Assembly (NCBI GenBank): GCA_023382675.1 | Contig: JAHDWN010000025.1 | Span: forward strand, 1 to 64,000 | Direction: 5' to 3' | Origin: Anaerolineae bacterium | GTDB lineage: Bacteria; Chloroflexota; Anaerolineae; Aggregatilineales; Phototrophicaceae | Length of the DNA stretch: 64,000 nt | In this document: piece by piece, positions 1,034-2,949 of the stretch | Numbering within the stretch: position 1 is the stretch's first letter | Layout of the letters: the number at the start of each line of letters is the position of its first letter | Translations under genes and position numbers: made by a program | The notes under the pieces: model-generated | The model's database searches: none | Told to the model about the DNA's origin: nothing | Seen by the model: only the letters and a program-made list of their open reading frames with translations

Positions 1034-1855
1034 TCACCAGCCGTTTGTGGTTCTGATGTAGGTGTATGCCTCATTGATGACCTGGAAGCGGCGTTCGGCT
1101 TCATCCTTGGGCAGGTGGCTCACGTCAGGGTGGCACTCGCGCGCCAGCTTGCGGAACGCAGACTTAACGTCATCCTCCGCCGCATCGCGCGTTAAACCCA
1201 ATTGCTTGTAGGCAATTTCGAGCTTGGCATCCTGAAGCATCGGCACAGTGCGATCCATGTAAGCGCCATAGGCACGCTCACTCGACCAATGGTTAACGCG
1301 CTGGCCTTCGTATTTTGCCTGTTCCGTCAATCGTTCTGCGCGGAAATCACTTTGCTTCCAGAATAGTTCGTTTCCAAAATTGGCAATCAGCCAGTCGCCG
1401 CGAATACTGGGCGTCTTCACCCACACGCGGTAAAACGGCAGCCCGGATGGTGTCACATCCGGCCCATACCAGACCTCGCGCAGATTACCTCCGTACACTC
1501 TGAAATGTACCTGTCCGATAATCGCCTGCTGATTGTCTATCCGGTAGGTGTAAATCCGGCCGCTAGAGAGTTCGTGGAGCGCAATCTGCCAATCGGCGGG
1601 TTCAACCCGCGCACCATCGGGCGGCAAAAGCCGGGCGTCGATCAAAAACAACGCGCCGATGCCCAGGCGTGATGTTTCTTGAAGAATTCGCTTGATCTGG
1701 CGTGTCTTGGGCACAGCATCGAAGACGTGAATGTGTACCGCTGCGCCGCTCCACAGATTGGCGGACAACACATTATCCTGCGTCAGCGAGCAGTTCTTGA
1801 CGCTGTTAAGACGTTTTACTTGTTGTGCCAGGCTTTTTTGCAGCGTCGTAATCAT
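1034..1855 (-). CDS. DnaJ-like protein with C-terminal J domain
   Basis: The last 65 or so residues form a J domain: AYKQLGLTRDAAEDDVKSAF, then ARECHPDVSH with the HPD tripeptide (about residues 242-244) needed to stimulate DnaK ATPase. The N-terminal 200 residues are not a Gly/Phe region or a zinc finger and I do not recognise them. I start at the ATG at 1853-1855 (MITTLQKSLAQQ). The frame is open further upstream, but those codons encode an unlikely peptide. It converges tail to tail with the LysM gene, 4 bp apart. It may be a specialised DnaK co-chaperone. Confidence 0.75.
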   Translation of the reverse strand: MITTLQKSLAQQVKRLNSVKNCSLTQDNVLSANLWSGAAVHIHVFDAVPKTRQIKRILQETSRLGIGALFLIDARLLPPDGARVEPADWQIALHELSSGRIYTYRIDNQQAIIGQVHFRVYGGNLREVWYGPDVTPSGLPFYRVWVKTPSIRGDWLIANFGNELFWKQSDFRAERLTEQAKYEGQRVNHWSSERAYGAYMDRTVPMLQDAKLEIAYKQLGLTRDAAEDDVKSAFRKLARECHPDVSHLPKDEAERRFQVINEAYTYIRTTNGW

Positions 1856-1913
1856 CGCCGGTAGCCCGCTGAGTGAACAATGAATCTCATTGTAGCATCG
1901 TTCCTTGCCGATT

Positions 1914-2085
1914 CCCCAGGACGGGTGCATTCGGATTCTGGGGCACGCCCGCCCATGAAATGGGACGGGCTACGGGAAACGCCCTCTCCGAGGGCTGTGA
2001 CAGCCGTTATGACGCCACTGAGCCTCCGCAGGAGGCGCACATTTAGACGGGGAATTACATTCCCCGGCGATGAAATGGCGCATTT
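1914..2085. repeat. Array of consecutive short hairpins with 3-nt loops
   Basis: The 383-bp gap between the J-domain gene and ubiE has no convincing gene but holds a chain of inverted repeats. They are: CCCCAG/CTGGGG (1914-1919 with 1938-1943); GCCCGCCCAT/ATGGGACGGGC (1947-1970, loop GAA, one bulged A); GCCCTC/GAGGGC (1981-1995, loop TCC); GGCTG/CAGCC (1993-2005, loop TGA); GCCTCC/GGAGGC (2022-2036, loop GCA); CGGGGAAT/ATTCCCCG (2048-2066, loop TAC); AAATG/CATTT (2073-2085, loop GCG). Six of the seven have exactly three loop bases. The stems are unrelated in sequence, so this is not a tandem repeat. Function unknown. Confidence 0.75.
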
Positions 2086-2238
2086 GCCCCAATCTCGAAT
2101 TCACCCCCTCAGGACTATCGGCAGGGATACAGAGTGAGGACACTGCCTGCTTCGTGCAAGTGTAAAATGGCACAATTCCTGTTGCGAGACGTCCGGCGAG
2201 CGAGATCGGCGGCCGGGCACTCTGTCGCGCGGCTCATT

Positions 2239-2949
2239 TCAGGCAGCAGGTTTTTCTCCCCAATGTACCGCCATGGTCGCAAACATGAAGGTTTTGTAGC
2301 CGACGTTGACGAGGCCGGACGCACGCATCAGCGCTGCCAGTTCGTCAGGCGTCTTGAATGCCTGAGTCGACTCTGGCAGATAGCGATAAGCATCAGCGTT
2401 CCGGCTGATGAGCCTCCCCAGGGTGGGGATGACGTATTTGAGGTGAAAGAGAATGAATGGGCGCAGGAGGTTATGCGGCGGCGGGGAGGTGTCGAGAATG
2501 ACAACGCGACCGCCTGGTTTGAGGACACGGAGCTGTTCAGCGAAGGCGCGCGGAATGTCATAGACGTTGCGAATGAGATAGCCGGCGGTGATGGCATCGA
2601 ACGTGTTGGCAGCGTAGGGCAGATTGAGCGCATCAGCCCCGCTCCACAGGACATTTTTGCCGAGAGGCAGCCGCTTGCCAACGCGCATCATCCCCAGCGA
2701 GAAATCACCGCCCACAGCCATCACGCCGGGGATCATGCGCAGGGCTTCAAAGGCGATGTCGCCTGTGCCGGTGGCGAGATCGAGCAGCTTCCCCCCTGGC
2801 CGCAAATGTGTCTGGCGGACGACGAAACGCCGCCATTTCATATCCTGCCCGAACGTCATCACGCGGTTCATCAGGTTGTAACGTGCCGCGATCCGGTCAA
2901 ACATATCCTGGACGTAATCCGCCCGCGCTTTGCCTTCTAGCGAAGCCAT
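2239..2949 (-). CDS. ubiE: Demethylmenaquinone methyltransferase
   Basis: The protein has 236 residues, normal for UbiE/MenG. It uses S-adenosylmethionine to methylate demethylmenaquinone, the last step of menaquinone synthesis. The family opening VQDMFDRIAARYNLMNRVMT and SAM-binding motif I LLDLATGTGDIA are present, as is the later family signature ITAGYLIRNV. The start is an ATG at 2947-2949 behind AGAAGG, only 2 bases away. No other men genes are next to it. With ccmAB elsewhere in the window it supports a quinone-based respiratory chain. Confidence 0.92.
   Translation of the reverse strand: MASLEGKARADYVQDMFDRIAARYNLMNRVMTFGQDMKWRRFVVRQTHLRPGGKLLDLATGTGDIAFEALRMIPGVMAVGGDFSLGMMRVGKRLPLGKNVLWSGADALNLPYAANTFDAITAGYLIRNVYDIPRAFAEQLRVLKPGGRVVILDTSPPPHNLLRPFILFHLKYVIPTLGRLISRNADAYRYLPESTQAFKTPDELAALMRASGLVNVGYKTFMFATMAVHWGEKPAA

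Follow-up and report, generated by a model that had tools for sequence, protein, structure and literature searches.

Our analysis of a 64,000-nucleotide stretch of Anaerolineae bacterium DNA (hereafter the window) identified a 184-bp element that is probably a non-autonomous, two-layer mobile element, in which a REP-like dimer of the Y1 transposase kind is nested within an ISKra4-type MITE. The chain of hairpins that it carries resembles a new RNA, but is explained here as two known kinds of mobile element nested in an unusual way, and a candidate parent can be named for each layer. The element and its surroundings comprise the following features:

1034-1852, minus strand: neighboring DnaJ-domain gene, outside the element (PF00226, E 5e-14)
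1914-1922, no strand: left flanking direct repeat CCCCAGGAC, a putative imperfect target duplication (8/9 bases identical to 2107-2115)
1923-2106, plus strand: whole element, 184 bp (extent common to the aligned own-genome copies; end pair found)
1923-1945, plus strand: left ISKra4-type end (end pattern in family genomes; same ends on full insertion sequences)
1946-2069, plus strand: core, a REP-like four-hairpin dimer (alignment A1 of 34 copies and covariance model R1)
1947-1970, plus strand: conserved hairpin 1, loop GAA, followed by TAC (94.7% of cells paired)
1981-1995, plus strand: conserved hairpin 2, loop TCC (99.0% of cells paired; both-side changes in 4/6 pairs)
2022-2036, plus strand: conserved hairpin 3, loop GCA (96.6% of cells paired; both-side changes in 2/6 pairs)
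2046-2068, plus strand: conserved hairpin 4, loop TAC, overlapping the tag TTAG (92.9% of cells paired; both-side changes in 4/10 pairs)
2070-2106, minus strand: right ISKra4-type end and subterminal stretch (own-genome copy alignment and end-pair search)
2107-2115, no strand: right flanking direct repeat CCTCAGGAC (flank-repeat comparison)
2239-2949, minus strand: neighboring ubiE-like methyltransferase gene, outside the element (PF01209, E 6.4e-54)

The initial annotation of this DNA had described seven inverted repeats at 1914-2085, six of them with 3-nt loops and two overlapping, and we recovered all seven: six hairpins with 3-nt loops and stems of at least 5 bp (1952-1964, 1981-1995, 1993-2005, 2022-2036, 2048-2066, and 2073-2085; two overlap each other), and a seventh with an 18-nt loop (arms 1914-1919/1938-1943). 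This is the best 172-bp stretch of the window, as no stretch elsewhere holds more than two such hairpins. The comparison with shuffled DNA that had been named as a possible refutation places the chain far beyond chance: when the window was dinucleotide-shuffled 60 times, the richest stretch had five hairpins in one shuffle, four in three, and two or three in the rest, while none of 5000 local shuffles of 1914-2085 reached five, the count used in this comparison because the sixth hairpin touches the edge once the region is cut out. The fold z-score against shuffles was -4.7 as RNA (plus strand) and -5.3 as DNA (minus strand), and in the predicted fold the outer arms 1923-1945 and 2070-2106 close the chain into a single multibranch structure. 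The chain is thus real, although the unit runs from 1923 to 2106 instead of the bounds first given, and four of the seven hairpins are conserved between copies, the other three being site-specific or poorly conserved. The pair 1914-1943 extends into the left flanking repeat and is therefore limited to the present site; a hairpin equivalent to the overlapping 1993-2005 is found in 4 of the 34 aligned copies; and hairpin 2073-2085 sits in the right arm and is changed in most aligned copies, as judged by eye. The stems had been called unrelated, which is true between positions, but each position is homologous across copies.

A BLAST search of the element's own genome returned 41 matches, 16 of them with E < 1e-17 (the query itself counted), and the oriented copies share one body of ~184 bp, with decayed ends visible in several. 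Covariance model R1, built from the core, gave at least 34 two-strand matches in this genome, corresponding to at least 22 places because 12 matches repeat the same place on the other strand; as 36 candidates were scored per genome, copy numbers are lower bounds. By the same model, seven of the 98 family genomes contain the core: five of one genus (the own genome, G002, G008, G010, and G013) and two of one other genus (G064 and G066). Two cores lie ~0.8 kb apart in opposite orientation at G000:C17:96067-96189 and 96971-97093, and a copy in G000:C6 that has an ISKra4-type end (L013) is truncated where the contig stops, as though the repeat had interrupted the assembly.

One copy, L009, is absent from G002, where the orthologous flanks lie 115 bp apart as opposed to 370 bp in the query; this empty site is not base-exact, since ~60 bp adjoining the element are missing too. 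The initial annotation had counted homologous gaps without stems in relatives against its proposal, and such a gap was found not for the window copy but for L009; we read it as a sign of mobility. At the window's own place, no empty site was found in G002, where homology upstream of the J-domain gene stops at 1903 and the gene that follows the J-domain gene is not ubiE, or in G013, where homology stops at 1810 and ubiE was not found in the locus either. The two flanks of another copy, L008, match separate G002 contigs.

An Rfam search of window positions 1700-2400 gave no match at E ≤ 5, and a scan of 1800-2400 revealed nothing resembling a promoter or terminator; on these grounds an intrinsic terminator and membership of an Rfam family were rejected. 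A plasmid repeat (no match) and a phage origin (no exact match of the end pattern in viral_contigs, from which records near the window's genome were possibly excluded) were likewise rejected. It had been suggested that the chain is a structured RNA between the J-domain gene and ubiE, a proposal left unsupported by a core that occurs at 22 or more places and by these negative searches. A broader version, in which a structured RNA or RNA-processing element with a cellular function multiplied as a repeat and was conserved because of its fold, would account for the strong RNA fold and for the compensatory changes described below, but is highly improbable in view of the dispersed copies, the absence of L009 from G002, the restriction of the core to 7 of 98 family genomes, and the lack of Rfam matches and promoter- or terminator-like sites in the regions searched.

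The outer layer of the element was identified through its ends. Of 98 family genomes, 16 contain the end pattern and none contains its reversed control; a looser pattern, applied to the own genome only, gave 25 matches against 1 in the control. At two loci (L095 and L098) these ends enclose insertion sequences of ~1.37 kb with two overlapping ORFs, the long ORFs of which match the ISKra4 model NF033572 of NCBIfam (E 8.5e-56 and 6.6e-52). Scored ORF by ORF, each falls below the curated cut-off of 205 bits (189.8 and 177 bits for the long ORFs; 36.6 and 46.7 for the short ones). Within the genus, ISKra4 transposase matches were found in 2 of 15 genomes: G007 holds an intact ISKra4-type copy carrying the element's ends (L122), and G013 a 39-residue transposase remnant adjoining an end. 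The own genome assembly gave zero matches to the ISKra4 transposase.

ISKra4 elements usually duplicate 8-9 bp of their target. At the full insertion sequences L095, L098, and L122, the two flank repeats are identical for 8 bp or more, and in the own genome they agree at 8/9 positions for the window copy (L001) and at 7/8 for both L005 and L014. Agreement of at least 7/8 was seen in 14 of 31 candidate end pairs compared with 4 of 930 mismatched pairs, in a test that kept only end pairs with GGG and CCC beside the ends. This filter dropped L078 despite its perfect GTCAGGTGG flank repeats, and 6 of the 31 pairs evidently arose by accident, five being long pairings that enclose no insertion sequence and one a shifted second pairing in L054; several end pairs, e.g., L002, L043, L074, and L081, showed no flank repeats by this test. 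Since the element shares its inverted ends with complete insertion sequences that encode an ISKra4-family transposase, and is bordered on both sides by a target duplication, it is an ISKra4-type MITE by the features that sequence can show.

Other small elements with such ends were also observed. In G014 (L051, L054, L085, L088, L089, and L094), ISKra4-type ends surround another interior, in which CCCTCACCC/GGGTGAGGG hairpins abound, with perfect flank repeats at L054/L085, L088, L089, and L094. Two elements of ~65-91 bp, L043:1501-1591 in the own genome and L082 at ~1501-1565 in G014, consist of little beyond two facing ends, and are possible MITEs without the dimer.

The inner layer was analyzed in alignment A1, which comprises 34 core copies selected from G000, G002, and G013; L013, L014/L017, L018, L022, and L062, which are partial or weak, were left out, as were further R1 matches. 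RNAalifold run without a supplied structure recovered the same four hairpins. Changes on both sides of a pair occur in 13 of 32 pairs and in 79 cells (shuffle mean 22.0), and 95.3% of cells are paired, compared with 88.9% in shuffles and 39-55% with slid partners, so that the covariation which the initial annotation had proposed to look for is seen as compensatory changes. The selection on shape that it had postulated fits these changes, but the number of further pair types is no better than in shuffles (27 versus 26.2; 204 of 500). Two pairs are often broken (in 10/34 and 14/34 copies). By alignment columns, loops of 3 nt are present at hairpins 1 to 4 in 34, 33, 34, and 34 of the 34 copies, one copy lacking the stem base beside loop 4. 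The tag after hairpin 1 is TA in 31/34 copies (TAC in 14) and that before hairpin 4 is NTAG in 23/34 (GTAG in 6), with TAC and GTAG both present in 4/34.

Short near-perfect palindromes can be corrected toward perfect pairing during replication, and such correction, or exchange between copies, could produce covariation in place of selection on shape. The present data do not separate this process from selection, and it may account for part of the covariation. As an alternative to shape selection it is nonetheless improbable, because the loop letters and the TA after hairpin 1 are conserved too, and correction alone needs neither.

The core is not confined to the ISKra4-type ends. With core coordinates set by hand, a recognizable end lies at the fixed distance from the core at 15 of the 22 own-genome places examined, flanking it on both sides at 10 of them, and is missing from both sides at the other 7; among these seven, L020 has weak ends 62-63 bp out and the flank repeats GATTTGGCG/GATTTGCCG (by eye), and 9.8% of shuffled flanks reach the same end match anywhere within 70 bp. 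In G013, none of the six core copies examined has an end at that distance. Moreover, at locus L183 of G002, an IS200/IS605-type Y1 gene is bracketed by three direct core copies, which have diverged, in the order core (1315-1439), Y1 gene match (1501-1845), core (1894-2018), and core (2024-2150). The Y1 protein is identical to one at the same place in JADLAY010000006.1, and G002 thus seems, for that contig at least, to be the public MAG "Anaerolineae bacterium isolate SJ143." The L183 copies score 56-68 bits with R1, against 113 for the window copy; as they score so low, the cognate gene of the window's core was not found among these loci, and none of the three short Y1 genes of the own genome has a core beside it.

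It could be argued that the element is a plain ISKra4-type MITE, with hairpins that are interior sequence without mobility of their own, end-less copies that are old and decayed, and a likeness beside the Y1 gene that arose when a unit inserted nearby. The end found on at least one side at 15 of 22 own-genome places and the decayed ends of several copies agree with this explanation, which is made unlikely by the G013 copies, by the direct core copies around the G002 gene, and by four other Y1 genes bracketed by units of the same plan. Together, the occurrence of the core outside the ends and the bracketing of the L183 gene suggest that the core is best read as a REP-like dimer of a Y1 transposase. 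A mobile single-strand DNA element had been the other possibility raised at first; the core beside a Y1 gene fits it, but ends belonging to a double-strand transposon of ISKra4 type are found on this copy as well.

The repeat test from which these four genes come covered 17 of 30 Y1 loci; of the excluded loci, 11 belong to open frames 551-1279 aa long and the remaining two to frames of 156 aa and 260 aa. At five of the 17 (L171, L176, L183, L193, and L194), the gene is flanked on either side by direct repeats of 126-175 bp; the other 12 lack long direct repeats (51 bp at L184, shorter or none at the rest). On visual inspection, every long repeat consists of a hairpin unit with stems of its own, with TA beside the big hairpins at four loci and TGAC/GTCA at L193. 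Five of the Y1 proteins (L172, L176, L183, L184, and L194) scored 83-103 bits with the IS200/IS605 model (cut-off 55) and 22-30 bits with the REP-associated model (cut-off 80), and their identification as RAYTs was dropped. The long open frames left out of the test carry PF01797 (Y1_Tnp) matches in many genomes of the genus (L177-L181, L186-L189, L191, and L196), and may represent a conserved long protein with a Y1-like domain.

We infer from these observations which transposase moved what, in which order the layers were nested, and what kept the hairpins in shape. A Y1 transposase would have placed the 124-bp core between the MITE ends, perhaps through its use of folded single strands, a step that rests on the bracketing of the Y1 gene and on the copies without ends. 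An ISKra4-type DDE transposase acting in trans would then have inserted the whole element, leaving a duplication of ~8-9 bp, and spread both layers, as the ends and flank repeats suggest. The plan of the core, in which two larger hairpins have TA(G) tags that point inward and the spacer between them carries two small hairpins, would have been maintained because the Y1 transposase recognizes folded single-stranded DNA.

Two further hairpin dimers with other stems were found by eye between ISKra4-type ends, which makes three different dimers, with the present core, in such a position within one genus. Type B occurs in G013 (L074:1278-1522, L078:1277-1522, and L081:1276-1522) and in G007 (L072), and type C is represented by L080:1501-1758 of G007 alone. 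In both types the loops are of 3 nt, and the big hairpins are accompanied by TAC, TAT or ATAG, GTAG. The interiors of the G014 MITEs and of L073, L077, L097, and L110 are of other kinds, and nesting is therefore not a rule for all ISKra4-type MITEs. It is conceivable, although doubtful, that IS200-class Y1 transposases of the genus drive their own REP-like four-hairpin units, with the folded arms of ISKra4-type MITEs as preferred insertion sites, so that joint elements of a single-strand and a double-strand transposition system arise repeatedly. The element offers a natural test case of whether Y1 transposases target the folded arms of other transposons. In the open-licence literature searched, we found no title on REP-like units inside ISKra4-type MITEs.

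Each layer can be compared with a known system. According to the sections of PMC3942029 consulted, ISKra4-family insertion sequences (p-MULT 4 with the ISMich2 branch) have Chloroflexi among their hosts. The ends of L095, L098, and L122 match those of the present element; the frameshifted arrangement of two overlapping ORFs described there for the ISMich2 group is the layout of L095 and L098. Unlike these insertion sequences, the present element has no transposase ORF of its own and encloses a REP-like dimer. Bacterial MITEs, as presented in part of PMC3733652, measure 70-300 bp, and the 184-bp element resembles them in its inverted ends, non-coding sequence, flank repeats, and dispersed intergenic copies, but differs in that its interior is a separate hairpin unit that is also found alone.

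The initial annotation had excluded a REP element on the grounds that it would not look like this, a claim not upheld here, as the core is REP-like. It shares with GTAG REP dimers, BIMEs, and REPtrons, in the portions of PMC3733652 and PMC6006769 available, dispersed inverted hairpin pairs, 3-nt loops, a structured spacer, and copies that flank a Y1 HUH transposase gene on either side, an arrangement seen at L183. In contrast with GTAG REPs, exact GTAG is rare in the core (6/34, at hairpin 4), copies occupy at least ~20 places per genome, and the five Y1 proteins scanned fit the IS200/IS605 model, none of them falling in the RAYT class. By analogy, the core appears to work like a GTAG REP, and we do not file it as one because the transposase class differs and the tag gives a mixed picture, with TA after hairpin 1 in 31/34 copies but TAC and GTAG together in 4/34. 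An excerpt of PMC6006769 ties REP sequences to TnpA-REP subclasses, and our results suggest that there may also be REP-like units with IS200-class transposases. Finally, REP dimers inside palindromes are noted in the available part of PMC3733652 for A. variabilis, T. roseum, and H. neapolitanus; compared with the cases as given there, the palindrome described here has a candidate parent.
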